Below, one piece after another: positions 17,069 through 41,631 of a stretch of DNA of 42,634 nucleotides. The notes beneath the pieces are model-generated. The model was not told the origin of the DNA, searched no databases, and saw only the letters and a program-made list of their open reading frames with translations. Within the stretch, counting starts at the first letter, position 1; every line of letters begins with the position of its first letter. The position numbers and the translations under genes were made by a program. Location: positions 1 through 42,634 of the IMG/VR virus record IMGVR_UViG_3300022929_003443. One strand, written 5' to 3'. This DNA is from a virus.

Positions 17069-18144
17069 TTAAATTGTTCTCCAAAAGGATCAAATTCTTT
17101 GCCGCATTTCATTGAACAAACTTTTAGTTTTCCGTTTCCACAGCTAGGTTGATTCCAACTATCTTCAATTTCGTCAAATAGTCCTGTATCAAAAACTGCT
17201 TTGAGTCCATGTTTTTTAGCACTAATTGCGTCTTTGCCGCCAGAACGTTCAATAAAATCCCATACTTGTTCTACCATAGGATTTTTATGCCACCATTTGT
17301 ACATACGTCCAGCAGTCCAACAACATGGCATAGCAAGCCCTTCTGCTGTAATAAACAAACTACCTTCCTCTTTTACTTTACAATTGACTGGAACTACATC
17401 ATAGTAAGCATCCATCGATCCGTATTTTTGTATAAGCACATCTTGTTTGCTTAATGCTTTATTTTGATACTTTTTTTCTGGCTTTTTAAGTTCTGTTGTT
17501 TTTTCGCCTTTGCGATTGACTGCTTGGTGTGATTCTTTATTTTCGCTTTTTGCTGTTACAAATCTTCCAGTCTTTTTTGCTTGAAATCTTTCAAAGCCCA
17601 TTAGTTTGCTTATTTCTTCTGCTTCTTCAACTTGATGTTGATTGTGTTCAAATATTAGAAAGTCCCATCTTGCTCTACCTCCAGCAGCAATAAAACTTTT
17701 CATAGCTCTTTCTACGTTGTCCCAAACAACACCCTGCCTGTATAAGTGATTAGTATCCCTAAGACCATCCACGCTAAAAATAACAGTACCCATCCTGCCG
17801 TAGATTTTGGCCAATTCAGCCCACCATGCTTCATCTCTTGCTCCTGCGTTTGTATTCATGCTGAGCCACATATCTTTGTTGTGTTCTCTAAAATATTTAA
17901 AAATTTCTAGCGTATCTTTAGCAACAATAGGATCTCCTAAATTGCCGCACATGTACATTGTTTTTAGTTGAGCAATAAACTCTGGCTCAAAGATGCGCTT
18001 ACAATCTTCTAAGGTTAGTTCACTTAAATCAATATGCGGATTTATATCTCCACCGTTTTGGTTCCTATCACACATAGGACAACTTGCTTGACAGTTCTGT
18101 GTGTTTTCTAAATGAATAACACGTACATCTTCATACTTATACAT
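17065..18144 (-). CDS. Radical SAM/SPASM-like protein (CGNLGDP group) with Lys-rich insert
   Basis: The 359-residue protein has CQASCPMC (C18, C22, C25), CGNLGDP at 66-72 and a SPASM-like C-terminus with C255, C274-C275 (MPCC), C335, C343 and C347. Residues about 190-235 form a charged, lysine-rich insertion that the paralogs lack or have shorter; it may be a flexible linker or partner-binding segment. The start ATG 18144 overlaps a 74-codon gene by 8 bp. Closest by eye to 29346-30392 (shared CPMC-x-R-N, CGNxGDP, FIAAGG-A-W, H-N-x-H-Q-V). Confidence 0.86.
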   Translation of the reverse strand: MYKYEDVRVIHLENTQNCQASCPMCDRNQNGGDINPHIDLSELTLEDCKRIFEPEFIAQLKTMYMCGNLGDPIVAKDTLEIFKYFREHNKDMWLSMNTNAGARDEAWWAELAKIYGRMGTVIFSVDGLRDTNHLYRQGVVWDNVERAMKSFIAAGGRARWDFLIFEHNQHQVEEAEEISKLMGFERFQAKKTGRFVTAKSENKESHQAVNRKGEKTTELKKPEKKYQNKALSKQDVLIQKYGSMDAYYDVVPVNCKVKEEGSLFITAEGLAMPCCWTAGRMYKWWHKNPMVEQVWDFIERSGGKDAISAKKHGLKAVFDTGLFDEIEDSWNQPSCGNGKLKVCSMKCGKEFDPFGEQFK

Positions 18145-18361
18145 CGTATACTAACTTTACATCCTTACCGGGGCCTGCTTTACTAGGCAAATCACCATAT
18201 TGATCGATATACCAATGTATTACAGCACAATACCAGTTCCAACTATTATGATGTGCTGCTTTATTAAACTGCCAAATATTATTATTAGTTGCTTCTATCG
18301 TGCTTAATGCTCTAGCACTTTCTAGTTGTAATTCTCTAGTACTTAAAGTTGACAAATCCAT
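18137..18361 (-). CDS. Small uncharacterised protein, 74 aa
   Basis: The frame is tightly packed: its ATG at 18361 makes TAATG with the methyltransferase stop upstream, and it overlaps the radical SAM gene downstream by 8 bp, which argues that it is a real gene. No signal peptide or transmembrane segment is seen. The middle is rich in aromatic residues, His and Asn (HHNSWNWYCAVIHWYIDQYG), and the first half is Ser/Thr/Leu-rich and probably helical. No family is recognised. It could be a small accessory subunit, or a peptide substrate for the neighbouring SPASM-like enzymes; the second idea rests on position only. Confidence 0.55.
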   Translation of the reverse strand: MDLSTLSTRELQLESARALSTIEATNNNIWQFNKAAHHNSWNWYCAVIHWYIDQYGDLPSKAGPGKDVKLVYDV

Positions 18362-20642: not shown

Positions 20643-22445
20643 ATGGAATTATACGAAGGCGGTCAATACAGAATTGATATTGTAGGATCCGACAGTTCTA
20701 TTATTATAGATAGTCAGCAAGGAGTCTTGAGAGCAAACGTTATCGGTTCTGACAACACTGTTTTACTAGATAGTGAAACAAGAACTTTGGTTGGCAATGT
20801 TACAGGAGATGTCACAGGTAACTTGACTGGCAAAGTTTCAGGTAATTTACAAGGCGAATTTGTAGACCAATACGATAACAGATTAATTGATACATCAGGA
20901 GTTTACATTCCTCTTCATTCAGATTTATATTATAATGATACTGTAAAAGCCTATGATAAATCCACTAATACATTTACAGGAAGATTTGTTGGTACATTAC
21001 GCAACGAAAACAATGAAGTAGTTTTTGATAGCACTGGAAACGGAGCAGTAACTTTTGAATCAACTGGTAACTTGAACAGCACTGGTGGCTTAACAATAGT
21101 TGATACAGATGATAGAACTGTGCTTGCCGATTTGTTAGATAACGATGGTAATACCCGTTATTCAAGAGATAGCGGATTATTTCAAGGATACTTTAAAGGA
21201 AATATTTTAGCAAGTGACGGATCAACTCTAATTGAACATTCAGAAAAAATGTTCTTTGGAAAACTAAATGGAGATATTACTAATCCAGCAGGACAAGTTG
21301 TGTTAGATCATGAAACACAAACTCTCACTGGAAAACTTGTTGGCAATATTGTTAGTAACGACGGTGAAGTTATTTTATCTAACTCAGAAAGAAAGTTTTA
21401 TGGTACATTAGTTGGTAATATAGAAAACGCTGACGGTGTTTCTATATACAACAAATATGATAATATTTTGCATTCAACTAATCTACATGGAAATTTAGTT
21501 GGACATATTCAAAATACAGACGGAAGTGATATATTTAATTCCTCAACAGGAGTATTCAGCTTTCCTATCACTGCCACACTCAAAGGTAATATTATAGATG
21601 TAGACGATGATATAGTTTTAAATATTAACACAAGAACATTAACTATGGAGAGTATTGTAACAAACAATATTAGCGGTAATCTTGCTGGATCGCTTAGAGG
21701 TAATATTTACGATTCTGATGGATTAATGATGTACGATAGTACATTAGGACACATATCTAATACATCTTTTAATGGCTATATCTATGATAATAACAACTTA
21801 GAAGTTTTTGATCCTTTACAAAATGTTATTTCAACAAAAACTTTGTATAGTGATAACGTAGTAGCAACTGCTATTGACTTAGATGCTGTAGTTGTAGACC
21901 AAGATGGTGTATTAGTAAATGTCCAATCTGCGTATAGTAATCCAGCATTTACAGGAAGATTTTTTAGAGAACAACAACCAAACAATATTCCTGATTGGTT
22001 TCAACAAGGTATCAGATTAGAAGCAATTGGCGGATCATGGCTGGATCCAAACCCAATTTCAGCAGGAACAAAACTACCAGCAGTAGCATGGGTAGGTGCT
22101 ATTAAAATTAATGAAAATTTTGAAGATAGCACAGAAGATCCTGACGATGAAGAAAAAATGGTTGCTGTTGCTGGTATGTATGGATACATTCCAGATGATG
22201 CTGAATTTGATTTAAATGCCGGAGAGCATAGAGGATGCCCGGGAGAACTTTGGTTTGTTACCCAATCGCCGACATATGGAACAAATTATATGAAGTTTGA
22301 CGCAAACGGTCAGCTTTCAACCGAATTAAAAGAATTTAAAGTTCATGGAGAAACAGGGGTAACACCAAGCAACACTAGTACGCCTGATAGTTGGTTACAA
22401 GCAACTGTTAACGGCGAAACTAAATTTATCCCGCTTTACAGCTAA
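20643..22445 (+). CDS. Tail-fibre-like virion protein built of short repeats
   Basis: The 600-residue protein consists, from about residue 25 to 395, of ~30-residue repeats of the form G-x-L-x-G-N-I-x-x-x-D-G-x-x-(I/V)-x-D/N-x-x-x-x-x-(L/F). These are typical of beta-helical fibre shafts in marine T4-like phages. An early run NVTGDVTGNLTGKVSGNLQG shows the motif most tightly. The C-terminal ~150 residues are different: WFVTQSPTYGTNYMKFDANG, then STPDSWLQATVNGETKFIPL, an ending I recall from phage structural proteins. It probably binds a receptor or forms part of a fibre or decoration. It is the clearest phage gene in the window, expressed divergently from the glycan/radical SAM block, and its stop overlaps the next ATG as TAATG. 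Confidence 0.75.
   Translation: MELYEGGQYRIDIVGSDSSIIIDSQQGVLRANVIGSDNTVLLDSETRTLVGNVTGDVTGNLTGKVSGNLQGEFVDQYDNRLIDTSGVYIPLHSDLYYNDTVKAYDKSTNTFTGRFVGTLRNENNEVVFDSTGNGAVTFESTGNLNSTGGLTIVDTDDRTVLADLLDNDGNTRYSRDSGLFQGYFKGNILASDGSTLIEHSEKMFFGKLNGDITNPAGQVVLDHETQTLTGKLVGNIVSNDGEVILSNSERKFYGTLVGNIENADGVSIYNKYDNILHSTNLHGNLVGHIQNTDGSDIFNSSTGVFSFPITATLKGNIIDVDDDIVLNINTRTLTMESIVTNNISGNLAGSLRGNIYDSDGLMMYDSTLGHISNTSFNGYIYDNNNLEVFDPLQNVISTKTLYSDNVVATAIDLDAVVVDQDGVLVNVQSAYSNPAFTGRFFREQQPNNIPDWFQQGIRLEAIGGSWLDPNPISAGTKLPAVAWVGAIKINENFEDSTEDPDDEEKMVAVAGMYGYIPDDAEFDLNAGEHRGCPGELWFVTQSPTYGTNYMKFDANGQLSTELKEFKVHGETGVTPSNTSTPDSWLQATVNGETKFIPLYS
20715..21827 (+). repeat. Coding repeat region, about 30-residue G-N-(I/V)-x-x-x-D-G units
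   Basis: Protein-level repeats inside the tail-fibre-like gene: GNVTGD, GNLTGK, GNILAS, GDITNP, GNIVSN, GNIENA, GHIQNT, GNIIDV, GNIYDS. Each is followed by D-G or D-D and a beta strand. The boundaries are approximate. DNA identity between units is low, so this is old, diverged duplication. Confidence 0.6.
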
Positions 22446-23113
22446 TGTTTGAATATTATTACAACACAGTGCCAGGCAAAGGCCTGTGTAGAAATAATCT
22501 TGTATATACAAGCAAGATAGACAGACAAAATAATCTGTTTAGTGTTCATTACACAGTAGACCAAACCTATCACAAAAACGAATGTTTGCCTCAAAGTGTT
22601 CTAAACGAAAAATGGCGTAGAGAATTCAAGTATACATTAGAAGCACCACATACACTTGATGTTAAAGAACTAGATAGTGTAAAACGTAGAATTATTTTTA
22701 ATATAGAAGATGATGATTTTTGGCAACTTGCGGATTGCGACTACCGTAACTTTGCCAAAGTATTGCCAGACTGGCAAGAACAAATGCTTACTATATTACA
22801 AGACTATAGAAATAAAGGCATTTGGAAATACAGTTTACATCCGAGTAGTTTTTTTATTATAGACGGACAGTTAAGAACTGTTAATCATTTTTTCTGCTAC
22901 AGCGATGAAGAACAAGAAGTTAGTATAGAAAGTGTACTTGATCATATTAGCAAAGATAGACAAGCAAAACTTTTTGAATATTTAAATTCTAACGGAATAG
23001 ATCCAAGTAAAACATTTTCGTTTAAGTTTTATGGAGGCGTAGTTTTAGATAATTTTAGCGGAGATTATCCTAGTGATTTTATTGATAAAGCAAAGAAAAT
23101 TTATCTGGCATAA
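22445..23113 (+). CDS. Uncharacterised protein downstream of the tail-fibre gene
   Basis: The 222-residue protein is translationally coupled to the fibre gene (TAATG at 22443-22447). It has no signal peptide or membrane segment. A central stretch KYSLHPSSFFIIDGQLRTVN has the look of the catalytic/metal part of a kinase-like fold (S-L-H-P-x-N/S-F), but the N-terminal ATP-binding motifs are not evident. I recall similar proteins beside fibre genes of marine T4-like phages. A fibre chaperone or modifying factor is possible. Its end overlaps the convergent oxygenase gene by 35 bp. Confidence 0.6.
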   Translation: MFEYYYNTVPGKGLCRNNLVYTSKIDRQNNLFSVHYTVDQTYHKNECLPQSVLNEKWRREFKYTLEAPHTLDVKELDSVKRRIIFNIEDDDFWQLADCDYRNFAKVLPDWQEQMLTILQDYRNKGIWKYSLHPSSFFIIDGQLRTVNHFFCYSDEEQEVSIESVLDHISKDRQAKLFEYLNSNGIDPSKTFSFKFYGGVVLDNFSGDYPSDFIDKAKKIYLA

Positions 23114-23735
23114 CATCAACTAAATGATTAATCCAAAAAGAATTTGTTAAAAATTTGACACCTGTTGAAGTAATTTCAAAATTATTCATTGCTTGGCGTA
23201 AATTAATTTCATTTAACAATGGTGAAATGTATTTGTCAAAAACAAAACGTGGATTTTCTCCTCCGGCTACAATTTCAACTGGATCTGTTACCCAATCGCT
23301 ACGTTTTAACAAACAACGTACAACTAATTGATATCTTGGGTATTGTCCAAAATTAGCAGCACTATGATTGCGACCAGCATCCATTAAATAGTATTTGCCA
23401 TCTGCTTCTAATGGATACATATGATTATTGTGTAAATCAATAAGAGCTGCATTGTCGCCTGATATGTTTAAATGATATCTATTATCAATATCACTATGGG
23501 CAAAATAGCACGTACCAGACTCTTGTTTAACAATTCTTGCTTCACCGGTATTTTTTAAAGGTAATAATAGTTTTTCAAATATAGTATCTTTATACTCAGG
23601 CAGTATTTCCCAAGAATCATAAAAGAAATCTCCAGTAGGTTTATTTAAAACTGTTTTACCTTCCATTGTTTTACACAACTCAAATGCTTGTTGTACTTCT
23701 TCAAGACTAATTTTGTATTCAGTGTTACTAATCAT
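23079..23735 (-). CDS. Aspartyl/asparaginyl hydroxylase-like 2-oxoglutarate oxygenase
   Basis: The 218-residue protein shows a full candidate iron/2-oxoglutarate site: H80-x-D82 in CYFAHSDIDNRYHLN, H124 in AGRNHSAANFG and R140 (LVVR), with the beta-strand rhythm of the AspH fold. Family members hydroxylate Asp/Asn or proline in proteins or peptides, or free amino acids. The target here is unknown. It forms a single-gene minus unit between two plus units, with its own TAAATA-type box 4 nt before the ATG. Confidence 0.65.
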   Translation of the reverse strand: MISNTEYKISLEEVQQAFELCKTMEGKTVLNKPTGDFFYDSWEILPEYKDTIFEKLLLPLKNTGEARIVKQESGTCYFAHSDIDNRYHLNISGDNAALIDLHNNHMYPLEADGKYYLMDAGRNHSAANFGQYPRYQLVVRCLLKRSDWVTDPVEIVAGGENPRFVFDKYISPLLNEINLRQAMNNFEITSTGVKFLTNSFWINHLVDVMPDKFSLLYQ

Positions 23736-23761: not shown

Positions 23762-24568
23762 ATGATACGAGGTTTCGAAAACTTACCTTACATTGACCTA
23801 GATCCTTTTTTAGATATAGACGGTTTTAAAAAATTAAATGCGGAAATATGTAGAGGTATGGCTCAAGCACGACTATTTGCCAAAGAAGGCACATGGATGC
23901 CAGCAGGATTTGATTTAAAAGACATGAGCTATATAGGCAACTGGAAGCCAGTATACAAAGCCTATGAAGAATATCAAGCATTAGAACCAAATAATCCGAT
24001 ACGTATTGAAGGTGATAAAATATTTCCTAAAGATTTTACCAACTATATAGAACGTAATCAATTTGTAAGATATTTAAAAAGTGCTATGGGCGCACACGAT
24101 CCATACACTTACTATGTTTTACAAGAAGAAGGCACCAATATGAAAGACAGAGGTTTGGAACAAAGAGCCGCAACAGACGAAAGTGCCTACTTTCCAGGCG
24201 TTATGGATTGGATAGCACAACTAAAGGAACAATCAATTGTAGAACACGTAGGTAGAGTCATGTTTTTTGTAAGTGAAGCAAGTAGTAGGCCCTTTGAGCA
24301 TAGAGATTTAGATCCAGAAGTAAAAGACTATACTGATCACAATATTGAGTTTATTCATATACGTCCAAACACCAAGCGTGGCTTTTATATTTGGGATCCA
24401 GAGCACAAACGCAAGCATTATGTAAATTCTCATGCTTGTTTTTTCAACGACCAAGACTGGCATGGCGGTGAGCATAGTATGGAACAAGAATATGGATTGC
24501 GTATTGATTGTAAATTCACACAAGAATTCAAAGAACGCATAGGAATAGGACACTTGACACATTACTAA
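23762..24568 (+). CDS. Putative Fe(II)/2-oxoglutarate-dependent oxygenase
   Basis: The 268-residue protein has H180-x-D182 (FEHRDLD), H234 (DWHGGEH) and R247 (YGLRID), in the order and spacing of a double-stranded beta-helix oxygenase. The first ~120 residues are unrecognised and begin GFENLPYIDLDPFLDIDG. It is not similar by eye to the other three oxygenase-like proteins apart from the metal site. It heads a six-gene plus block that continues with a PP-loop enzyme and four radical SAM genes. The substrate is unknown. Confidence 0.62.
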   Translation: MIRGFENLPYIDLDPFLDIDGFKKLNAEICRGMAQARLFAKEGTWMPAGFDLKDMSYIGNWKPVYKAYEEYQALEPNNPIRIEGDKIFPKDFTNYIERNQFVRYLKSAMGAHDPYTYYVLQEEGTNMKDRGLEQRAATDESAYFPGVMDWIAQLKEQSIVEHVGRVMFFVSEASSRPFEHRDLDPEVKDYTDHNIEFIHIRPNTKRGFYIWDPEHKRKHYVNSHACFFNDQDWHGGEHSMEQEYGLRIDCKFTQEFKERIGIGHLTHY

Positions 24569-24586: not shown

Positions 24587-25282
24587 ATGGTAATCGATGG
24601 CGTAACAATACCACTACAAAAAGAATGGAAACGTATTGGCATTAGTCTAAGTGGCGGTGCTGACAGTGCTTTGCTGGCTTACTTTGTGTTGAGTAACACA
24701 AATGCTGATATCTACTTTACCACACAGGTGCGTATGTGGAAAACACGCCCTTGGCAACGTTGGATTGCTAGAGATGTGGTAAGTTGGTTCCGTGAAAAGT
24801 TTAACAATCGTATCGAACACATAGAAGGCTTTATACCGCCAGAGATGGAAGAGCCACACACAACACATATTACAGACGAGTATGGGCAAAACAAGCCCGG
24901 AAACAGAATTATACTACGAGCTCACAATGAATACATAGCACATTTACACAAACTTGACGCATGGTATGCTGCTGTTACCCTAAATCCAGATGAAAAGTTT
25001 GAAGGTGCTCCTGAGGATAGAGAATATGCTAGACTACCTATTGAAACAGAACATATGGGTGTAACAGTTTGTCATCCATTTAGTGTAGTACGCAAAAATT
25101 GGATAATCAAGCAATATGTTGATAATGAAATTGGCGAACTATTGGAAATAACACGTAGTTGTGAAGGCGAATTTGAAGGGCTAGACTATACAACATACAA
25201 ACCCTATCAAAGAGTTCCATACTGTAATGAATGTTTTTGGTGTAAAGAACGTGAATGGGGTATTATCAATGCATCCAAGTAA
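24587..25282 (+). CDS. PP-loop ATPase related to QueC (7-cyano-7-deazaguanine synthase)
   Basis: The 231-residue protein has the PP-loop S22-GGADS27 near the N-terminus. Its C-terminal cysteine set C192, C213, C216 and C219 (CNECFWCKERE) fits the zinc site and C-x2-C-x2-R end of QueC. QueC turns 7-carboxy-7-deazaguanine into preQ0, which some phages insert in DNA. The sequence between is not a close match to QueC, and no QueD, QueE or DpdA partner is recognised here, so another PP-loop adenylating/amidating role is equally likely. It overlaps the next radical SAM gene by 14 bp. Confidence 0.6.
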   Translation: MVIDGVTIPLQKEWKRIGISLSGGADSALLAYFVLSNTNADIYFTTQVRMWKTRPWQRWIARDVVSWFREKFNNRIEHIEGFIPPEMEEPHTTHITDEYGQNKPGNRIILRAHNEYIAHLHKLDAWYAAVTLNPDEKFEGAPEDREYARLPIETEHMGVTVCHPFSVVRKNWIIKQYVDNEIGELLEITRSCEGEFEGLDYTTYKPYQRVPYCNECFWCKEREWGIINASK

Positions 25283-26534
25283 AACTTTTTGCTTACATCC
25301 GTTTACAGGACTTGCTACTAGAGAAGATGGTGCTATCAAAGTATGTTGTCGTAGTTTACCTATTGGATGGATACAAGATAGTACTTTGGAAGAAGTTTGG
25401 AATAATGGTACAATGCGTGAAGTACGTAAACAAGTGCTTTCAAATGAGAGACCAGACGTTTGTGCCCCGTGTTTTAACTTAGAGGATCAAGGTGTCGAGA
25501 GTTTAAGACAAAGGCACATACGTGATAGCTTTCCCGAAGCACGAATAAACTTATATCCTGATGCGCTTGAATCGTTACGTACAGATTGGAGTATGCCATT
25601 TGAATTTCCTACAATAGAAATAAAAATTAATAACTTATGTAATTTAAAATGCCGCATGTGTAATCCTTTAGATAGCACACAATGGAAAGACTGGAAAGAA
25701 GTTGAAAACTTTTATAAGGATGAAGGAAATTATCTATACGATACAGTAAGAAAACTAGGACTTACTGAAGCTCCTTATATTGATTTATTTAATGACAAAG
25801 TAGATTTTTGGAATAACATTGAAAAACTATTACCTTATTTCCGTAGAGTAGAGTTTGCTGGCGGAGAGCCATTAATGGACCCTACACATTATCGTATATT
25901 GGATATGTTAGCACCGTATGGAAAAAACATAGAGATAAAATATGCTACAAACGGCACAGTGACTGGTATAAAAGGCGGAAGGACAATACACGACTATTGG
26001 CCTAAGTTTAGGAAAGTAAGTGTTAATGTAAGCATAGACGGTATACACGATGTATACGATCATATAAGAGGCAACGGTGACTTTACACAAGTAGAAGAAA
26101 CAGTAAAAATATTCCAAAGTTTTCCTAATGTTGATTATGTTGTAGGAGCATGTACAGTACAAGCAGGAAATGCTTTACAATTATCTGATATAATTGATTA
26201 CTTTTTAAACAAAATGGGCATTGTGTTTTACTCGCATAGAGTAAACTATCCAAACGTATTAAGTGCGCAATGCTTACCAAACAAATATAAGACAAGAATT
26301 ATACGGCAACTAGAGATGCTTAAAGCACAAGTAGTTGACTACCCTATTATGAGCGTAGACAAAAGATTACTGCCTATTACACTACAACAGATACAGGACA
26401 ATATTAACTTTTTGACTGCTAGAGATTTAAGCGACAAGTGGCCGCAAACTTTAGAGTTCAATCGCAGACTTGATGTGAGTCGCGGACAAAGAAGTTTTGA
26501 AAGTTTGATAGATGATTACGCAAGTTACAAATAA
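25269..26534 (+). CDS. Radical SAM protein with N-terminal twitch segment
   Basis: The start is ATG 25269 (421 aa, MHPSKTFCLHPF); an upstream in-frame start at 25227 would lie deep in the QueC-like gene. N-terminal cysteines are C8 (CLHPF), C26-C27 and C65/C68 (CAPC), then CNLKCRMC (C124, C128, C131) and FAGGEPL. It has the E-D-Q-G-V-E-S-L-R-Q pattern after the second pair, as in the others. It is first of four consecutive radical SAM genes. TGGGG about 9 nt before the ATG is a weak ribosome site. Confidence 0.88.
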   Translation: MHPSKTFCLHPFTGLATREDGAIKVCCRSLPIGWIQDSTLEEVWNNGTMREVRKQVLSNERPDVCAPCFNLEDQGVESLRQRHIRDSFPEARINLYPDALESLRTDWSMPFEFPTIEIKINNLCNLKCRMCNPLDSTQWKDWKEVENFYKDEGNYLYDTVRKLGLTEAPYIDLFNDKVDFWNNIEKLLPYFRRVEFAGGEPLMDPTHYRILDMLAPYGKNIEIKYATNGTVTGIKGGRTIHDYWPKFRKVSVNVSIDGIHDVYDHIRGNGDFTQVEETVKIFQSFPNVDYVVGACTVQAGNALQLSDIIDYFLNKMGIVFYSHRVNYPNVLSAQCLPNKYKTRIIRQLEMLKAQVVDYPIMSVDKRLLPITLQQIQDNINFLTARDLSDKWPQTLEFNRRLDVSRGQRSFESLIDDYASYK

Positions 26535-27456
26535 TATCAATAACGATACGTTAATGATAGATATGAGTATTGGTAATATTTGTAATTATCAATGCTGGTA
26601 TTGCTTTAAGGGCGCACACGAAGGTAATCACAAATGGTTTAATTACGATATATTAATTAAAAATACAGATAGACTGCTTAATTGGTATAAAAATCAAGGT
26701 AAAACTAAATTTGACATTCATTTTGTAGGAGGTGAACCAACACACTGGCCAAAACTTCTTGATTATATTAAATATCTTAAGGACAATTACAACTGTTTAA
26801 TCAGCATGACTAGCAATGGCAGTAAAAAATTAGACTTATGGAATAAATTTGCCAAATATTTTGACAAAATACACCTAAGCTATCATTATAGACAAGCAAA
26901 TTTACAATCGTTTATTAATGTTGCTGATTTATTGTATAAGAACAAAGTTATTGTAAGTGCTAGTGTAATGATGGATCCTTTGGATTGGGACAAATGTATT
27001 TTAGCTATTGAAAAAATGAAGAAAAGCAAGTACCGCTGGACTATTAGATATTCAGAAATTTTAAGCAATAAAGAATATACAGAAAAACAAAAGATTATTT
27101 TAAAGAAACATAAAGCTCGTAGTGCTAATCCTTTATGGTTTTTTATTAATAACAAATATAAATCAACTAAAATATATGTAGACAAAAAACGTGTGCCAGA
27201 CAATTATATTTTAGTAAATAAACTTAATAAGTTCAAAGGATGGAAATGTAATTTAGGACTAGACTGGATACACATTAGTCCAAACGGTGAATTAAGTGGA
27301 ACATGTGGACAACATTTATTTGGCAAAGATAAAAATTATAATTTTAGACAAAAAACATTTTATAAAAAATTTAATCCTACGTTACAACCTGTTGTTTGTA
27401 CTCAATGCGAATGTAATTGTATGCCGGAGACTAATATTACTAAATGTTTAGTGTAG
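26512..27456 (+). CDS. Short radical SAM protein with C-terminal Cys-rich tail
   Basis: The 314-residue protein has CNYQCWYC (C24, C28, C31), GGEP at 73-76, SYHYRQAN at the place of the YHH motif, and a tail with C246, C265, C296, C299, C301, C303 and C312. It matches 12301-13248 and 33305-34213 in length and cysteine order. It is lysine-rich. The ATG at 26512 overlaps the previous gene by 23 bp. The reaction is unknown; the extra cysteines suggest one auxiliary cluster. Confidence 0.85.
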   Translation: MITQVTNNINNDTLMIDMSIGNICNYQCWYCFKGAHEGNHKWFNYDILIKNTDRLLNWYKNQGKTKFDIHFVGGEPTHWPKLLDYIKYLKDNYNCLISMTSNGSKKLDLWNKFAKYFDKIHLSYHYRQANLQSFINVADLLYKNKVIVSASVMMDPLDWDKCILAIEKMKKSKYRWTIRYSEILSNKEYTEKQKIILKKHKARSANPLWFFINNKYKSTKIYVDKKRVPDNYILVNKLNKFKGWKCNLGLDWIHISPNGELSGTCGQHLFGKDKNYNFRQKTFYKKFNPTLQPVVCTQCECNCMPETNITKCLV

Positions 27457-28340
27457 AAAATAGGTGGCCGCACTATAGAGATAGTGTTAAAGTTGAGTGG
27501 AATTTAGGTAAACGTTGTAACCTAGACTGTTCATACTGTCCTCCTGAAATACATGATCAACATAGTCCTCATACAAACATAGGTAAACTGTTTGAAACAG
27601 TAGATACACTTTCTCAAATCAAAAATGTACGTATTAGTTTTACAGGTGGTGAACCGTGCGTTCATCCTCAGTTTGAATATTTGATTGAGTATGCTCGTCC
27701 TAAAATTAATTGGTTAAGTGTTACAACTAACGCTACTAGAAAAGCAGAATACTACTTACAACTGCCAGTCAATTACATAGTGTTCAGCTTACATATTGAA
27801 GATAAAGACTGGCGTAAAAGACTTGACACTATTTTATATTTTGCTGGCACAGTAGGTGGTATAAAACATTCTAAAGACTTTCATGTAATGATAATGGCAC
27901 ATCACGAGTTAATGAAAGAAGTAAAACTAGCAACTAGATTACTTACTGAACATAATATTGCTTTTAGTATTAGACGCATACGATGGACCGAACGTCATGA
28001 CTGGTTTGACGATATGCGGTATGAACTTAAAGATTTAGAATGGATAAAAAGCACAGAAACAACAGCTAAACCTAACACTCTTGTTGACAGTAAAGATTTG
28101 ATGCACACAAACGATTTACTTAAAGAAAAATTAAATATGTTTAAGGGATGGCAATGTAGAGCTGGTATAGAAAGTTTAATGATAAATTGGGATGGAGAAG
28201 TACATAGAGCTACATGTAGAGTTGGTGGAAGTTTAGGAAACATATATAATGGAAGTTTTGAACGTCCCGATGTTCCTATAATTTGTACTAGAGATTGGTG
28301 TACATGTGCTGCTGATGTGAATATAACTAAATGGAAGTAG
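27444..28340 (+). CDS. Short radical SAM protein with C-terminal Cys-rich tail
   Basis: The 298-residue protein has CNLDCSYC (C25, C29, C32), TGGEPC at 67-72 and a tail with C238 (GWQCRAG), C258, C281, C286 and C288 (CTC), ending DVNITKWK. FSLHIED replaces the YHH motif of its paralogs. It overlaps both neighbours by about 10-13 bp, making a tight run of four radical SAM genes that are likely co-translated and may act together or on related substrates. Confidence 0.85.
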   Translation: MFSVENRWPHYRDSVKVEWNLGKRCNLDCSYCPPEIHDQHSPHTNIGKLFETVDTLSQIKNVRISFTGGEPCVHPQFEYLIEYARPKINWLSVTTNATRKAEYYLQLPVNYIVFSLHIEDKDWRKRLDTILYFAGTVGGIKHSKDFHVMIMAHHELMKEVKLATRLLTEHNIAFSIRRIRWTERHDWFDDMRYELKDLEWIKSTETTAKPNTLVDSKDLMHTNDLLKEKLNMFKGWQCRAGIESLMINWDGEVHRATCRVGGSLGNIYNGSFERPDVPIICTRDWCTCAADVNITKWK

Positions 28341-29383
28341 ATGCTATAAAATTAACCAATCCTGAACCTATGATGGTTACATGGGATATTGGTAGACGTT
28401 GTAATTTTGATTGTACTTACTGCGAAAGCACTAGGCATAACACTTATAGCCCGCCTACAAGTTGGAATGAATTATGTGACACATTGTCATTTGTTAAACA
28501 ATACACATCATTATATAAACAACCAAATGCTAATATAGGATTTACCGGAGGGGAACCAACAGTTAATCCAAAGTTTTGGGACTTTGTAGAAAAAATAAAC
28601 AATGAAACTGAGTTTCAAGTTGGCATGACCAGCAACGGCACATGGCCAGAAAAGCATATTGATTTTATTAAGCAAAACTTTGTAGGCATAACACTAAGTT
28701 ATCATGCCGAAGCAGCACTTTTTAGTAAAGAACGCACAGTAAATAACGCTATATTAGTACATGACGCAGGTATTTGGAATACAGTAAATGTAATGATGCA
28801 CGCTGATCACTGGAATGAATGTGTAGAAGTACATGAAAAATTAAAGGCGCACGGTATTGATAGCAAACCAACGATAATAGGCGACGGGATAGTAGGAATT
28901 ACAGATTGGTTTGAGGATACTGAAGGTGTCAAACGCAGGACCAGTCATCCTTATACAATAGAACAGCAACAATGGTATCTTAAAGAAAAAGGTTTGTCAA
29001 TTGATTTAGTTGAACGTGTAAAAGAAGGATATGAATTGCCTAGAGGCTGTTGTGGTGCTAGAAGTATACAAGGAAGCTGTAACGGATGCTGGAATAAAGT
29101 AGAAGCTGTGAACACTAATTTTAAAGATTGGTATTGTGCTGTAAACAAGTATTTTTTACATATTGATCAACATACAGGAAAAGTTTATCATCACCAAACT
29201 TGTCAAACAAGTTTTAGTGGACGAAAAGGCCCAATAGGACGTTTAAGTAATCCTGATGGAATATTAAATTATGCCTATGAAAATCGCGATAGAATAATAA
29301 AATGTCCACACAATAGATGCGGTTGCGGTATGTGTGTACCTAAAGCTAAGTCACTTGAAGTTTTTCAACAAATTGTTCGCTAG
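28331..29383 (+). CDS. Radical SAM protein with extended C-terminal Cys-rich region
   Basis: The 350-residue protein has CNFDCTYC (C24, C28, C31), GGEP at 73-76, LSYHAEAA, then an inserted cysteine-rich stretch (GCCGARSIQGSCNGCW) and a C-terminal C325, C330, C332, C335 (CGCGMC). It is a clear paralog of 32257-33312, which has the matching CCGNKTLCASGC insertion, the DH/NK-YFL-I-x-Q-x-T-G-x-V strand and GPIG-L. With up to twelve cysteines outside the barrel it may hold two extra clusters. Its end overlaps the convergent radical SAM gene by 38 bp. Confidence 0.85.
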   Translation: MEVDAIKLTNPEPMMVTWDIGRRCNFDCTYCESTRHNTYSPPTSWNELCDTLSFVKQYTSLYKQPNANIGFTGGEPTVNPKFWDFVEKINNETEFQVGMTSNGTWPEKHIDFIKQNFVGITLSYHAEAALFSKERTVNNAILVHDAGIWNTVNVMMHADHWNECVEVHEKLKAHGIDSKPTIIGDGIVGITDWFEDTEGVKRRTSHPYTIEQQQWYLKEKGLSIDLVERVKEGYELPRGCCGARSIQGSCNGCWNKVEAVNTNFKDWYCAVNKYFLHIDQHTGKVYHHQTCQTSFSGRKGPIGRLSNPDGILNYAYENRDRIIKCPHNRCGCGMCVPKAKSLEVFQQIVR

Positions 29384-31180: not shown

Positions 31181-32309
31181 TAAAGATACTTGTGTATGTA
31201 TTGTAAACGATGTTGCTGAATACACTGTAGACAAGCAACTAGTAGTAAATCGTGCTGACTACACAATTAGTAACTTAACTGGCATGGGTTACACTGTGTT
31301 CGAAGACGCTAGTGTAGACAAACTACTACAATCAGCCTGTGCTAAATACGACCATGCTGTGGTAATAAGTGCTGGCACAGAATTCATTAACGGCACACAG
31401 TTTTTTGAGACACATCCTGAAGAATATGATTTGCTGTGTCACATACTGGACGGAGGTGATGCCTATTATGGAATACACCCGCAGTGTTTCAGCATTGACT
31501 TACAAACATATATAGATCTAGACTGTCCAGAGTTTGGAAAACCACAGTTCTTTACGGATTACCAGGCACTTGAACCAATGCGAAGTCACGGTAGCATACA
31601 CGATGACTATTTGCCTACATGGATTGGCGCAGGTAAAATAGAAGTAACGTACAAACACAAACAGGCAGGTTGGAATTTAATCAAAACCCTGCTAGACAAT
31701 CATTATACTATTGAAGCATATTCTGAAGATCAACGTGGCGGCAAGTTTTATCAATACAGAGGCGGAGAAACCAGCAGTTATATCTATCAAAAATACAATT
31801 ACTGTTTAACTACACACGTACATACACAAGCAACAGGAAAGCCTGACTATCCAAGAGTATATGATACACCTATTATGCGTCTTGTAGCACCTGCTAATCC
31901 ACTTGCCGCAGAACAACGTGGCCCTGCTGCTGAACACATTTACTATGATTACAATCTCGCAGCACTAGAAGCAGCAGGTGGCGGCATACATGTTGATCCT
32001 ATAAACACACCTGAACAGTTTGTAGCGCATATACCTAAAGACAATCCGCAAGGCACAGTAATTGACATGAGCAATGTGTTTTGTTATGAAGGTACTGCTG
32101 CTATGTACAGTATGCGTTATAGAGTTGCGCAAGAAAATAAATTGATACTTGCTTTACAACAAGAATTGGGTGATGCGACTGTAATATTTGATCAAAGAGC
32201 AGCAGAGGGTATACAACCTTGGTGTGCCGAAACAGGATTGGTTAAGGATTTAGTTCTTACTGATTTTGACTGTTTAAATCTGCCATCATGGCATCAAACT
32301 TTACTTTAG
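31152..32309 (+). CDS. Uncharacterised protein, 385 aa
   Basis: I do not recognise a family. The protein starts at ATG 31152, inside the oxygenase gene, without a clear ribosome site, so the start is uncertain. It is soluble by eye, with no signal peptide. Segments such as YDHAVVISAGTEFINGTQFF and CHILDGGDAYYGIHPQC resemble the donor-binding half of some nucleotide-sugar transferases. The second half (TVIDMSNVFCYEGTAAMYS, with repeated Ala/Glu-rich helices) could be a separate domain. A glycosyltransferase-like role fits the neighbourhood but is a guess. Its last 53 bp overlap the convergent radical SAM gene, the longest such overlap here. Confidence 0.6.
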   Translation: MNVYQSKFTDKDTCVCIVNDVAEYTVDKQLVVNRADYTISNLTGMGYTVFEDASVDKLLQSACAKYDHAVVISAGTEFINGTQFFETHPEEYDLLCHILDGGDAYYGIHPQCFSIDLQTYIDLDCPEFGKPQFFTDYQALEPMRSHGSIHDDYLPTWIGAGKIEVTYKHKQAGWNLIKTLLDNHYTIEAYSEDQRGGKFYQYRGGETSSYIYQKYNYCLTTHVHTQATGKPDYPRVYDTPIMRLVAPANPLAAEQRGPAAEHIYYDYNLAALEAAGGGIHVDPINTPEQFVAHIPKDNPQGTVIDMSNVFCYEGTAAMYSMRYRVAQENKLILALQQELGDATVIFDQRAAEGIQPWCAETGLVKDLVLTDFDCLNLPSWHQTLL

Positions 32310-33312
32310 TTCGTGCCTTAGGCGCACATATACCACACCAACAACTAGACTTTTTACACACTATACCACGATTGTGTGCTTCTTTTATAATTTTGTTAGT
32401 GTCTGACAAATACCCAATTGGACCGATTGAATTTTGGTAATTCATTTTACAATCTTTATTAGTAAAAACTTCACCTGTAGTTTGTCTAATATATAAGAAA
32501 TGATCTGCTACACTACAATGCCAGTTTTTAAATTTATTATCAACATATTTTGTATAACAACCGCTGGCGCACAGTGTTTTGTTGCCACAACAAGCTCTAC
32601 CTTCTGCGCTTAAATTTAATCCTTTTACAAAAGCGTGAGATAATTTATCTTTTAATGTAATTTTTTTGCCTAAAAGATATTCAGCTTGTTTAGCAGAATA
32701 GTTCCACCGCATATCTAACCAATGATGGTCCAATTGTCTTGCGTGATGAGGTATATTGTGTTTTTTACACCATTCAATCATTTCAACACAATCGTTCCAA
32801 TGTCTTGGATCCATCATAATATTTACAGTAAAGTTTTTTTGTTTTTTTACACAATATTGTATGTTTTTCCTTACAATATTTTTTTGTTTTTGTGTCGCAC
32901 TGGCATGATAGCTAATAGTATAGTAGTCAACATACTCAGTTATACGAGTCCACTGTCTAGCACCAACCACAGCATTTGTTATAAATGCTATGCCCATATA
33001 CCAATCGTATTTTTGTCTTTTGAAGTTTATCCATTTCAGTATATCAACTATGTGAGGATGGAATAAACTTTCGCCACCTTGTATATTTAAATTGGCTTGT
33101 CTAGCCGATTCAGGACGCTCGGACATCTTGAGATCAACATAGCGAAATATAAAATCTACAGTTTCATTACACTCGCCTAAACTAGGATGTTCTGTTTTGT
33201 TGTCATGCCCGTCTCCACAATACGCACAATCGAGATTACATTTCAATGTGCTTTCCCAAGCAATTTGGAATATTCTATCTTCTTGTGGTATTAGTGTATC
33301 AAACTCAGGCAT
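32257..33312 (-). CDS. Radical SAM protein with extended C-terminal Cys-rich region (GGES variant)
   Basis: The 351-residue paralog of 28331-29383 has CNLDCAYC (C25, C29, C32), QGGESLF instead of GGEP, ISYHASAT, a mid CCGNKTLCASGC stretch and a final C319, C324, C326, C329. The change of Pro to Ser in the SAM-amino-binding turn is shared only with 8686-10098. Start ATG 33312 overlaps the upstream radical SAM gene by 8 bp. It ends the six-gene minus block. Confidence 0.85.
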   Translation of the reverse strand: MPEFDTLIPQEDRIFQIAWESTLKCNLDCAYCGDGHDNKTEHPSLGECNETVDFIFRYVDLKMSERPESARQANLNIQGGESLFHPHIVDILKWINFKRQKYDWYMGIAFITNAVVGARQWTRITEYVDYYTISYHASATQKQKNIVRKNIQYCVKKQKNFTVNIMMDPRHWNDCVEMIEWCKKHNIPHHARQLDHHWLDMRWNYSAKQAEYLLGKKITLKDKLSHAFVKGLNLSAEGRACCGNKTLCASGCYTKYVDNKFKNWHCSVADHFLYIRQTTGEVFTNKDCKMNYQNSIGPIGYLSDTNKIIKEAHNRGIVCKKSSCWCGICAPKARTKVKFDAMMADLNSQNQ

Positions 33313-34213
33313 GTGCTCTCCACTTGGTGGTTATTGTTTCGCCGCTACATGGACAAGTGTATTTACTACATTTTACAGGTGCTATATCAATATCGGGTAA
33401 ATCATATATATTGTAACCAAGGTCAGTTCCGCAATTGCCGCCAACGTTGCCCTGTCTATCTATTTTAACAATATCAACACCTAAATTACACTGCCAACCC
33501 TCAAAGTGATTGAGGTTGTTTACCACAAAGTAGTTGTCGTCTGTGTGTGCTTCGCCGTCTATACTGAATTCAGTTCTTGGCTTGCGTTGAACTTCCGTAT
33601 ACCAATCCATATCAGGATATTGTTTGATTGGATCACGCACATACTCAAGTTGTTCTTCGTTATAGCGGTGTTCGCCGTTATACAAAACAGTCTTAGCAAG
33701 CACAGGAAACGGCTTCCAACCGCCTGTTACAGCGTCTACAAGCGTCTTACAGCGCCCAAAGTGGTCAGGATCCATTAACACATCAATGTTTGTTTCAACT
33801 TTATAATCGTATAATAGTTCGGCAACACCTAAACAATGAGCAGCATCTCCTGCCTCGTGATGTAAACTAATATGGACCACATCAAAACAATGCCAATGCC
33901 TTTTCCACCAATTTAGGCTTTGACTAGCATTAGTACTTAAACATATTTTGATGTTGTGTGCCATTTTAAGTGTATTACACAGCCTTGGCAAGTGTTTCCA
34001 CAGTGTAGGCTCACCGCCTATCAAATACAGTCTAGTAGGTCTGTCGTGTTGTTTGATATATTTCAGCAGTGCTGTTTCTAATCTATCTACATTAGGCCAA
34101 CGCACTGTGCCTTCGTTAGCACCTGGAAAACAATAATTACACTTGTAATTACAAGTGTTGCCCAAGTCTAATTCAATGACAAAATCTGTATCGTAATTTT
34201 TTATAGATATCAT
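33305..34213 (-). CDS. Short radical SAM protein with C-terminal Cys-rich tail
   Basis: The 302-residue protein has CNYKCNYC (C21, C25, C28), GGEP at 66-69, ISLHHEAGD, and a tail with C242 (GWQCNLG), C261, C282, C287 and C289 (CPC). Closest relatives are 26512-27456 and 12301-13248. The ATG at 34213 overlaps the upstream stop as ATGA. It is placed next to a twitch-type protein, and the same pairing of one twitch and one short-tail protein occurs at 25269-27456, so the two types might act in sequence. Confidence 0.85.
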   Translation of the reverse strand: MISIKNYDTDFVIELDLGNTCNYKCNYCFPGANEGTVRWPNVDRLETALLKYIKQHDRPTRLYLIGGEPTLWKHLPRLCNTLKMAHNIKICLSTNASQSLNWWKRHWHCFDVVHISLHHEAGDAAHCLGVAELLYDYKVETNIDVLMDPDHFGRCKTLVDAVTGGWKPFPVLAKTVLYNGEHRYNEEQLEYVRDPIKQYPDMDWYTEVQRKPRTEFSIDGEAHTDDNYFVVNNLNHFEGWQCNLGVDIVKIDRQGNVGGNCGTDLGYNIYDLPDIDIAPVKCSKYTCPCSGETITTKWRAHA

Positions 34214-35589
34214 AACAAGTGAGCTAATTCAGGAAATACATCTTTAGCATTTACTCCTCTAATAGCATCAAGTTTGTTTACATACTCTTTGAATCCCGGA
34301 AGCAGATGACTCTTGTCTTCGGCGTCCATATGATTTAGTATTGCTTCCCAACGTCTCCAACCATACGGATTTAATTCCCAAAAGTTAGGATCCTGTGTCC
34401 AACTGTCATATAAAAATTCTTTGAATTTTCCAAACAGTTCACGTATTTCTGCTTTGTCCTCTTTTGGTAATATTTGTATACTCATAAATGTTGGAATATA
34501 CAATAAGTGCATATTGATTAGACCGCCGCCGACTTTTACTCCACGAATTTCTTCTGTGTTTACTTTTTTAAAATCTTGTGATATTTTCCAGTGAATAAAG
34601 TCTGGCAAATGTTTAATGTTAAAAATTTGTATAGCAGTGGCAATACTTGGCCGTATGTTGTCAGGTGTATTATCCAACATGTGTAAGTTACGTTCTACAG
34701 TATCCCAGTCTGTTGGAAACCGTATGTAGTTGTTACGTGGTCCAGCAGCGTCCATACTAACACCTACTTTTACTATTTCAAAGTGTTTCCATAAATTAAT
34801 TAAATCTTTATCAACTAATATGCCATTTGTATTATAGCGTAAACGTATACGTTTATGATAGCCTTGTCTAACAATTTCTTCGATAAACTTTTTGTGTTCT
34901 TTTATCATCAATGGCTCACCGCCAGCAAAGTATACTTCACGTAGATTAGGTATTTGTTTGTATAGATCGTCCCAGAATATTTCTTGTTCGTGCCACTTGT
35001 TGTTGAAAGCAGATTTATCCCATTGCATCTGTCTCTTGACTTCTAGATCTTTTAGCTGTGGCTCTAATACTTTCCAGTCCTTTACCCACTTGCTGCTGTC
35101 ATGTGGCGAACACATTACACACTTGATATTACAAGTATGCCCAAGACGCAGGTCTAAATATTGTAGTTCTTCTTTGTAGTATCCATCTTTGTGTGTTTCG
35201 TTTAATAAATCTTGTATATCAAGACCACGTTCCATCCAGGTTCCTGTTTCCCACACACGTTTGCTTACTACACCCTTTGATTCTTCAGCAAAACACTTTG
35301 TACAACTAGCAGGTATTTTACCATCCATCATGGTACGTCTTACACCACGCATGTATTCGCTGTTCCATGCTTCCATAGGAGATGTTGACGCAAAGTTTAT
35401 ATGCTGTCCGCTATCGTCTTTTACAATACCCACTGTATGATCTGTGCCTGCTCCGCTGGCGTTAGCACTACAGCACAACCGCATATCTCCATTTGGACGT
35501 GTGGCCATGTGTATCCAAGGCAACGCACAAAAAGTTTCTGTTGCTTCTGCTTTTAGTCTGTTATTAAATAATTCTAAAAAGTCTGTCAT
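34210..35589 (-). CDS. Radical SAM protein with N-terminal twitch segment
   Basis: The 459-residue paralog of 8686-10098 has C21 (CALPW), C39-C40, a CTKC pair near 101-104, CNIKCVMC near 154-161 and FAGGEPL, here with the normal GGEP. Shared TRPNGDMRLCC, AWNSEYM, MCSPHDSSKW and LHMLDNT-type segments show common descent. ATGA overlaps at both ends couple it to the methyltransferase-like gene upstream and the short radical SAM gene downstream. Confidence 0.88.
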   Translation of the reverse strand: MTDFLELFNNRLKAEATETFCALPWIHMATRPNGDMRLCCSANASGAGTDHTVGIVKDDSGQHINFASTSPMEAWNSEYMRGVRRTMMDGKIPASCTKCFAEESKGVVSKRVWETGTWMERGLDIQDLLNETHKDGYYKEELQYLDLRLGHTCNIKCVMCSPHDSSKWVKDWKVLEPQLKDLEVKRQMQWDKSAFNNKWHEQEIFWDDLYKQIPNLREVYFAGGEPLMIKEHKKFIEEIVRQGYHKRIRLRYNTNGILVDKDLINLWKHFEIVKVGVSMDAAGPRNNYIRFPTDWDTVERNLHMLDNTPDNIRPSIATAIQIFNIKHLPDFIHWKISQDFKKVNTEEIRGVKVGGGLINMHLLYIPTFMSIQILPKEDKAEIRELFGKFKEFLYDSWTQDPNFWELNPYGWRRWEAILNHMDAEDKSHLLPGFKEYVNKLDAIRGVNAKDVFPELAHLL

Positions 35590-36188
35590 TTGCGCCCAAT
35601 CAAAAGATATCTATCATACAATGGTAATTTAAGAGTATCCTCTGTATATATCTTTTGTAAACCACTGGACATTTTGAATTCTTCTAATGAATCATAACAA
35701 CGAATATGATCAGCAATACTTTTATAATTGTTATTTTGTATAGCAATAGCACTTGTTTTTGGAACACGTTCTAACCATGTTTCATATTGTTCTTGTGTTA
35801 TATGTTCTGTACTAGTGTTTATTACAAGATCAGGAGTAAATTCATATTCGTATGTACACATATCGCAAGTAATAGCATTAAATTTGCCTTCAATTTCTTG
35901 CCTCTTACAAATCATGTTAGCAACTTCTTCACAACTCGGATCTATATCAACACTACGTATGTCATTTATGTCTAATTTACTGTTAAACAACAAACTAGAT
36001 AATACACCGTTCCAACCGCCAAAGATTACAATGTTCTCTTGACGCCAATGAGAATTATGTAGATGCTCTACAAGCCACACTTTGCTTTTAAGTTGTCCTT
36101 TCCAAAAACTTTCTAACACACCGAAATGATTTTCGTTGTTTCGCACAGCATCCATCCAAAATGCTACATCGTCTAAGTCTACCAACAT
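35586..36188 (-). CDS. Methyltransferase-like protein, short paralog (NTSxEH family)
   Basis: The 200-residue protein corresponds to the C-terminal two thirds of 18361-19260: IVIFGGWNGVLSSLL at motif I, VDIDPSCEE as the acidic strand, LVINTSTEHIT, AIAIQNNNY and the final LIGRK. The clearer GGWNG loop and DID acidic strand support a class I SAM-binding fold. The N-terminal domain of the long paralog is absent. The acceptor is unknown. It overlaps the GT-like gene upstream by 10 bp. Confidence 0.55.
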   Translation of the reverse strand: MLVDLDDVAFWMDAVRNNENHFGVLESFWKGQLKSKVWLVEHLHNSHWRQENIVIFGGWNGVLSSLLFNSKLDINDIRSVDIDPSCEEVANMICKRQEIEGKFNAITCDMCTYEYEFTPDLVINTSTEHITQEQYETWLERVPKTSAIAIQNNNYKSIADHIRCYDSLEEFKMSSGLQKIYTEDTLKLPLYDRYLLIGRK

Positions 36189-40629: not shown

Positions 40630-41631
40630 ATGAATATTTATAGTACAAACGAATGGGATACGTTGAAAAAGGTTTGTGTCGGAGTTGCTGACTATTGCCG
40701 CATTCCCGAGATGGACGAAAGTTTGCGTGTAATCAATTACGCAGACAGACAGGATGTAAGTGATGTAAAGGCTGGCTTATATCCTGATCAAGTTGTAGAA
40801 GAATCAAACGAAGATCTTGAAACTTTTGTAAAGTTTTTAGAAGGCGAGAGTGTTGAAGTAGTAAGACCTAAGCGTACAGAAGAAGTTGAATACTACAACT
40901 ATTGCCCACGTGATACTGTATTTGTTCATGGCAACAGAGCTTTTGCTGCTCCAATGGCCCTCGCAGCAAGAGAAACAGAATGGCGACATCTACTGCCTGG
41001 TGTTAGTCCTATTGAAATAGGACACGGCATCGACAGAACAGGATTGTATGACGAATCATGCGTTGGAGATCCAGATCGCCTTGCCCTCACTGAAGTAGCA
41101 CCTTGTTTTGACGCTGCTAATGCTATTAGAGCTAACGACGATATTTTGTATTTGGTAAGCAATAGTGGTAACAAAGCAGGTGCTGCTTATTTACAAACTT
41201 GGATAAACAAACCTGAAAACAGTTTTTCTGAACCAGGTAATATACGTGTTCATCGTCTTGAAGATGTATACAGCTATATGCATATCGATAGCACTATTGC
41301 GTTTTTGCGTGAAGGATTATTACTTGCTAATCCTAGCAGAATAAAAAGTATGGACGTTCTACCTGATCCTTTTAACAAATGGGATGTAATTTGGGCACCT
41401 GATGCTGTAGACGCTGGACACTATCCAGGATTGTGTAACAGTAGTATTTGGACTTGGAACGTAAACTTGTTCAGTGTAAATCCAAACTTAGTTGTATTAG
41501 AAGAACATCAAGAGCCAACACGTAAGGCACTAGAAGCACACGGTATTGAATGTGCTATGCTACCACTTCGCCATGCTAGAACGCTAGGCGGCTGTTTTCA
41601 TTGCTGTACATTAGATCTCGTAAGAGGATAA
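40630..41631 (+). CDS. Amidinotransferase (glycine amidinotransferase-like)
   Basis: The 333-residue protein keeps the guanidino-group-modifying enzyme signature: EWDTLKKVCVG at the start, PRD at 93-95, FDAAN around D161, the H218-x-D220 pair in MHIDSTIAFLREG and the C-terminal LGGCFHCCTLDLVR with catalytic Cys most likely C325. Length and motif order fit arginine:glycine/inosamine amidinotransferases, which move the amidino group from arginine to an amine, giving guanidino compounds. In a sugar-modifying setting an amino sugar or aminocyclitol could be the acceptor, but that is inference. It is a single-gene plus unit. Confidence 0.8.
   Translation: MNIYSTNEWDTLKKVCVGVADYCRIPEMDESLRVINYADRQDVSDVKAGLYPDQVVEESNEDLETFVKFLEGESVEVVRPKRTEEVEYYNYCPRDTVFVHGNRAFAAPMALAARETEWRHLLPGVSPIEIGHGIDRTGLYDESCVGDPDRLALTEVAPCFDAANAIRANDDILYLVSNSGNKAGAAYLQTWINKPENSFSEPGNIRVHRLEDVYSYMHIDSTIAFLREGLLLANPSRIKSMDVLPDPFNKWDVIWAPDAVDAGHYPGLCNSSIWTWNVNLFSVNPNLVVLEEHQEPTRKALEAHGIECAMLPLRHARTLGGCFHCCTLDLVRG

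Follow-up and report, generated by a model that had tools for sequence, protein, structure and literature searches.

The stretch analysed here (the window) is the 42,634-base IMG/VR virus record IMGVR_UViG_3300022929_003443, positions 1 to 42,634, which was read as a genome fragment. It contains an array of radical S-adenosylmethionine (rSAM) genes, in which the conserved unit is a pair: an rSAM gene of the N-terminal-twitch type (twitchA), followed by a separate rSAM gene of the short-tail type (shortA). A second pair (twitchB and shortB) faces the first, and the two sides are called arm A and arm B. That the genes have stayed adjacent in dozens of related viruses and in some bacteria suggests that the members of a pair function together; their target is probably a surface molecule with a part in host recognition.

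Conservation of the twitch and short-tail pairs

The first-pass annotation of the window described arm A as four consecutive overlapping rSAM genes behind a QueC-like gene, comprising one twitch, two short-tail and one extended-tail type. This description is correct (Table 1). The five open reading frames (ORFs), 24587, 25269, 26512, 27444 and 28331, are all on the + strand and overlap successively by 14, 23, 13 and 10 nt, and all four rSAM genes have the CxxxCxxC core and match PF04055 above its cut-off. ORFs were called mechanically, and the rSAM classes rest on motifs: 25269 (twitchA) matches NF033640, the model for N-terminal-twitch rSAM proteins (N_Twi_rSAM), and the tails are recognized by their C-terminal cysteines. 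The twitchA ORF spans 25227-26534, and orthologue alignments favour a start at 25269. Numbered from 25227, its C22, C40, C41, C79, C82 and C138/C142/C145 are invariant in 11 orthologues. In shortA (27444), the CxxxCxxC motif and C238, C258, C281, C286 and C288 are invariant across 37 orthologues. The shortA tail, C238-x12-G251-x6-C258 with C281-x4-C286-x-C288 (G251 being invariant as well), is similar in pattern to the SPASM/twitch motif, CX9-15GX4C with more cysteines after it, but the spacing is one or two off.

When viral contigs were scanned with twitchA, at least 470 stretches proved to encode relatives. The analysis used the 80 top loci of each scan, and those for twitchA formed 37 clusters at 95% identity. 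In all 37, twitchA is followed by shortA on the same strand: directly in 26 (overlaps of 4-50 nt) and with 26512 between them in two, while in nine the two are separated by an unrelated gene that encodes about 280 amino acids. The QueC-like gene is directly upstream of twitchA in 28 of the 37. The reverse test, starting from shortA, gave 49 clusters, and twitchA was found upstream in all 40 that had enough flank (29 directly, 11 one gene away). The first-pass annotation also noted the pairing of a twitch with a short-tail gene at 33305-35589, and it is present there as twitchB and shortB. Of 46 shortB clusters, 38 have twitchB directly upstream (its frame is broken in one of these) and five have it at a distance of one gene, giving 43 of 46, with an overlap of mostly 4 nt. 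As the clusters are themselves related, these counts are not independent events. The arrangement is far beyond chance: 49 same-strand neighbours in the order twitch then short were seen in the 37 loci, compared to 4.7 expected and a maximum of 12 in 2000 within-locus label shuffles. The third occurrence proposed in the first-pass annotation, at 8686-13248, was ruled out on gene order. The transcribed order there is short (12301), SPASM-like (11216), twitch (10095) and twitch (8686), which contains no adjacent twitch and short-tail pair.

The unit is the pair and not the run of four, because 26512 and extA (28331) come and go. Loci of the window's clade are the only ones with 26512 in the slot between twitchA and shortA; outside this clade the slot is empty or holds the gene of about 280 amino acids, and relatives of 26512 in other loci adjoin twitchB. 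extA was found in 12 of the 25 loci with complete flanks (full loci). A four-gene operon was therefore ruled out as the unit. The surroundings of twitchA and shortA are rearranged in several types of locus (for example L090, L114 and L127) and the pair is kept; in the type formed by L090, L114, L124, L127 and L145 the QueC-like gene has been relocated, and twitchA and shortA are still together. The expectation that the adjacency would be conserved in related genomes thus held, both in genomes rearranged around the pair and in the bacterial orthologue pairs described below.

The gene of about 280 amino acids found inside the pair (L076, L078, L080, L092, L107, L125, L126, L143 and L144) belongs to a family without CxxxCxxC, and one member compared with PHROG gave no match.

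The window has 17 Pfam radical SAM matches (18 rSAM genes by motif, plus a B12-type enzyme at 7242), and each of 20 related records has 6-22 rSAM genes. Such arrays recur in other phages. Campylobacter phages CP220/CPt10 have 11-12 rSAM genes (PMC2853527), marine T4-like environmental genomes have 12 (PMC5332604), and pelagimyophage islands contain tail fibres, glycosyltransferases and rSAM cassettes, and were interpreted as host-recognition clusters (PMC7029224). All of these resemble the present array in having many rSAM genes in an interchangeable myophage island, and the pelagimyophage islands also in placing them beside tail fibres and glycosyltransferases. This recurrence, together with the highly variable outer parts of the island, could mean that the locus is an accretion hotspot, in which rSAM genes gather without any partnership. 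For the pairs this is very improbable and is strongly disfavoured, given that adjacency holds in every twitchA and shortA cluster with enough flank, and that the pairs are inherited together in phages and bacteria, while their neighbours are shuffled. The other rSAM genes of the window may have gathered in this way.

Gene order, overlap and co-inheritance thus provide good support for the idea that the twitch and short-tail proteins are conserved, co-expressed partners, as the first-pass annotation had suggested for such mixed pairs. Its further suggestion, that the partners act on one substrate in sequence, may be right, but a complex or parallel action would fit equally well.

Bacterial counterparts

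When cellular genomes were scanned with short patterns from twitchA, no relative was found; this reflects the limited reach of the patterns, since the later scan with shortA did reveal distant bacterial pairs. That scan led to a contig of a Bdellovibrionales metagenome-assembled genome (MAG), which by eye has ordinary chromosomal genes elsewhere. The island at the end of this contig, known from a MAG, contains a fibre-tip-like gene, two glycosyltransferase-like genes, a relative of 19247, a twitch gene, a twitchA-like gene (27% identity) and a shortA-like gene (35-49%), the last split across two frames. The phage contig L056 has the same gene order, plus one twitch gene. Genomes related to the MAG have up to 13 N_Twi_rSAM genes, with further adjacent pairs of twitch with short-tail or extended-tail genes.

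In the trees, the bacterial twitch protein of L151 groups with twitchA, with modest support (85/76), and the L151 short-tail protein groups with shortA (99/97). The pairs of L056 and L183 group together in both the twitch and the short-tail tree (100/99 and 97/93). The two trees agree, and by this phylogenetic evidence two lineages of the pair are shared by phages and bacteria as adjacent pairs.

Several other genes belong here. The twitch gene at 8686-10104 is 57-61% identical to bacterial genes (L180, L182 and L184) from genomes related to the MAG, so exchange between phages and bacteria has occurred. At L180:13864-14616 there is a bacterial QueC-like gene (26% identity to 24587) after a twitch gene, near genes resembling 35586, 7242, 17065 and 28331; judged by these similarities, much of the phage island has its cellular counterpart in this set. 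At L151:7983-9133 and L152:12433-13490 the short-tail gene is in two pieces, one ORF for the core and another, overlapping it, for the C-terminal part, which could be a natural split, a frameshift or a sequencing error. Bacterial ORFs of about 650 amino acids (L170:43-2007, L158:526-2472 and L174:58-2025) have a short-tail-like rSAM fused to a further part.

Structure predictions for the QueC-like protein and shortA

The profile of the QueC-like protein gave no significant match to the sequences of solved structures, and a fold search was therefore made. The AlphaFold2 model has a pLDDT (predicted local distance difference test) score of 92.4, and the best fold in the PDB is QueC (2PG3, E 5e-6), with Cap9 at rank 5. 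Its orthologues score marginally above the Pfam QueC cut-off. The SGGADS loop and four cysteines are invariant in 38 orthologues. The protein thus resembles the QueC superfamily (QueC, QatC and Cap9; PF06508) in having the PP-loop ATPase fold, the SGGxDS loop and four C-terminal cysteines with CxxCxxC. It departs from the canonical C(x)8CxxCxxC zinc motif, the spacing being C192-x20-C213-x2-C216-x2-C219 and variable in orthologues, and identity to solved QueC is about 14%. It also differs from canonical QueC in the substrate motifs YxQxHxxE, VPxRN and YPDC (PMC13329287), none of which is among the invariant columns of the 38 orthologues.

The fold and the zinc-type cysteines of 24587, together with a fragment at one contig end that looks QueE-like by eye, are what would be expected if the QueC-like protein were a true QueC and one of the rSAM proteins a QueE, in a pathway that provides phage DNA or tRNA with 7-deazaguanine. 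This is extremely unlikely, and the pathway was ruled out: the canonical QueC motifs are not conserved, and the four rSAM proteins of arm A are far below the QueE cut-offs and score higher with other models. In addition, no further QueC was found in the related 357-kb record.

The AlphaFold2 model of shortA (pLDDT 87.6) matches BlsE best; EpeE, SkfB, MoaA, anSME, viperin, SpeY, BtrN and DesII are also among the matches. The matches are generic, with template modelling (TM) scores of about 0.4-0.6, and the matched enzymes act on sugars, nucleotides and peptides, so that the fold does not name the substrate. BlsE, EpeE, SpeY, BtrN and SkfB resemble shortA in overall fold (TM 0.37-0.61) and in the auxiliary-site pattern CX12GX5-6C plus CxxxxCxC, and are 14-17% identical to it. 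To our knowledge these are single enzymes, which are not paired with an N-terminal-twitch rSAM protein.

Since BlsE is a cytosylglucuronate decarboxylase, and SpeY, BtrN and DesII are among the matches, one can ask whether the pathway is purely one of sugars or glycans, with the rSAM enzymes acting on nucleotide sugars that decorate either the virion or the host surface, where they would block other phages. The window has cytidylyltransferase, NDP-sugar epimerase and DegT genes, and the relatives of QueC include N-sugar amidotransferases (PMC13329287). We regard this as a credible but less likely explanation, because few of the 25 full loci have sugar-nucleotide genes, whereas the AspH-type, twitch and short-tail genes are near-universal there, and the fold matches (TM about 0.4-0.6) are not specific.

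The peptide maturases EpeE, SkfB and anSME point in a different direction, as do twitch and SPASM enzymes in general, which often modify peptides: the rSAM pairs could mature a ribosomal precursor peptide encoded nearby, as in pathways for ribosomally synthesized and post-translationally modified peptides (RiPPs). A precursor gene was searched for near the pairs in the loci of the 37 clusters and not found. The loci are non-coding over about 2% of their length, and none of the small-ORF families reaches more than six of the 37 clusters. The candidate is a 74-amino-acid ORF at 18137-18361 (- strand), absent from the ORF list, which fills the only sizeable gap between larger genes and has a conserved relative in six of the 37 clusters. 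A precursor elsewhere in the genome is possible, and no separate search was aimed at genes for peptide recognition (RRE) or export. Overall a RiPP-like pathway seems distinctly improbable.

Proposed pathway

The reading that we prefer, by a modest balance of probability, is that the array is a biosynthetic or tailoring island whose unit is the twitch and short-tail pair, and whose pathway tailors a virion fibre or a surface glycan. Tailoring of this kind is favoured by the position in an island, by the bacterial island with its link to a fibre gene, and by what is known of pelagimyophages (PMC7029224).

The pathway would include the QueC-fold ATPase, AspH-type and other 2-oxoglutarate oxygenases, the methyltransferase-like protein and glycosyltransferase-like genes. 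The QueC-like enzyme may use ATP to activate a carboxylate by adenylation, and the product would be converted to an amide or nitrile, or conjugated. Next, the twitch and short-tail partners, whose overlapping genes are probably translationally coupled, would both act on this substrate by radical C-H chemistry, either as a complex or successively, with putative auxiliary-cluster cysteines at the N-terminus of the twitch enzyme and at the C-terminus of its partner. Hydroxylation, methylation and glycosylation would follow the radical step. What is modified is likely to be a virion fibre protein or a glycan on the host or virion surface.

Several observations weigh against this proposal. The core is surrounded by a variable set of fibre and glycan genes, from which the substrate cannot be read, and the shared substrate or complex of a pair is argued indirectly. 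A test for co-evolution, by correlation of distances between loci, does not set the pair apart (r = 0.56 for twitchA-shortA, compared to 0.72 for twitchA-twitchB and 0.67 for shortA with the QueC-like protein). Six of the eight twitch genes in the window stand without a short-tail partner, and nine clusters have the unrelated gene within the pair.

In a more specific version, twitch and short-tail proteins form an obligate heteromeric complex which, after activation by the QueC-fold ATPase, modifies residues at the tip of the tail fibre or of a homologous bacterial surface fibre. We consider this unlikely.

Core genes and phage group

The core genes of both arms and their immediate neighbours are listed in Table 1. 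twitchB is convergent to twitchA, and extB comes next after shortB in most clusters. Orthologues of extA are 46-55% identical. For 35586, Methyltransf_25 matched 11 of 28 orthologues (best E 1.8e-4). The stretch KYSLHPSSFF in 22445 resembles a protein-kinase catalytic loop without the usual Asp.

Table 1. Arm A, arm B and neighbouring core genes of the window, with presence in the 25 full loci.
Gene	Position	Strand	Full loci	Basis
Conserved protein, kinase-like catalytic-loop resemblance (HPSS)	22445..23113	+	25	By eye only
Aspartyl/asparaginyl beta-hydroxylase-like (AspH-like)	23079..23735	-	25	PF05118 sub-threshold, 19.5 bits; conserved HxD...H...R
Putative 2-oxoglutarate/Fe(II) oxygenase	23762..24568	+	23	FEHRDLD...WHGG...R conserved, by eye
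QueC-like (QueC-fold PP-loop ATPase), first gene of arm A	24587..25282	+	24	Fold, SGGADS loop
twitchA, N-terminal-twitch rSAM (N_Twi_rSAM)	25269..26534	+	25	NF033640, 304.7 bits (cut-off 170)
Short-tail rSAM, lineage-specific, in twitchA-shortA slot	26512..27456	+	12 (relatives)	CxxxxCxC-type tail
shortA, short-tail rSAM, partner of twitchA	27444..28340	+	25	Adjacency, CxxxxCxC-type tail
extA, extended-tail rSAM, facultative member of arm A	28331..29383	+	12	C-x4-CxC-x2-C end, longer middle
extB, extended-tail rSAM, arm B	32257..33312	-		C-x4-CxC-x2-C; 28% identical to its paralogue extA
shortB, short-tail rSAM, partner of twitchB	33305..34213	-		Adjacency, CxxxxCxC-type tail
twitchB, N_Twi_rSAM	34210..35589	-	25	NF033640, 395.8 bits (cut-off 170)
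Methyltransferase-like, upstream of twitchB	35586..36188	-	22	Pfam Methyltransf_25

Two further genes of the window were noted. A repeat protein of 600 amino acids and tail-fibre type is encoded mid-island at 20643-22445, with no match in Pfam or PHROG. The gene at 40630-41631 is amidinotransferase-like by eye, matches PHROG 25854 (function unassigned) and is 81% identical in L056.

The window ends short of the virion genes, and the phage group was set by means of related records with the same genes, which are up to 357 kb long and include virion and replication genes (SbcC-like, baseplate hub, baseplate wedge and exonuclease, and also fibres upstream of the array). Terminase_6N and T4 gp23 models gave no match in 20 related records, and the assignment was therefore made through the baseplate wedge. 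This protein was present in 11 of the 22 related records searched, and is 34-37% identical to its counterparts in Sinorhizobium phage Phosso, Atu_ph07, SCTP-2, RaK2 and PA5oct. The array is downstream of the wedge gene (about 30-40 kb from it where mapped) and directly after tail-fibre genes. Because of the resemblance of the wedge protein, and judging by homologous virion genes in the related records, the window is assigned to an uncultured jumbo myophage of the Atu_ph07/SCTP-2/RaK2/PA5oct group. The virus is large and uncultured, and infects bacteria; it is mostly marine.

Comparison with known systems and significance

twitchA and twitchB share with the NF033640 subfamily the N-terminal cysteine cluster and the CxxxCxxC core. 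That model describes a subfamily of unassigned function, and a fixed pairing with a separate short-tail rSAM protein is outside its definition. Among 50,697 GenBank phage records there was no match to the QueC-like protein or extA, and only weak matches to twitchA, twitchB and shortA. Vibrio phage K566/K567 (about 255 kb) has five N-terminal-twitch rSAM genes within 18 kb, at about 20-25% identity, but the stretch examined has no gene of the short-tail, extended-tail or QueC-like type. No cultured phage in these comparisons carries the module, although phage rSAM arrays are known. A conserved twitch and short-tail pair with a QueC-like gene is not described in PMC2853527, PMC5332604 or PMC7029224. 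As far as the open-access literature searched shows, the conserved pairs, the two-armed core with its QueC-like enzyme and the bacterial counterparts are new.

Phage rSAM arrays have been noted since 2010 (PMC2853527), with their functional unit unrecognized in the literature searched. A pair whose order is kept in dozens of phage lineages, and which phages and bacteria have in common as a unit, amounts to a defined and testable two-enzyme system. If the obligate complex were real, it would be a two-component radical SAM system of a kind not previously described. The pair hints at the role of the arrays, and at how the function-unassigned twitch-domain rSAM proteins may work.

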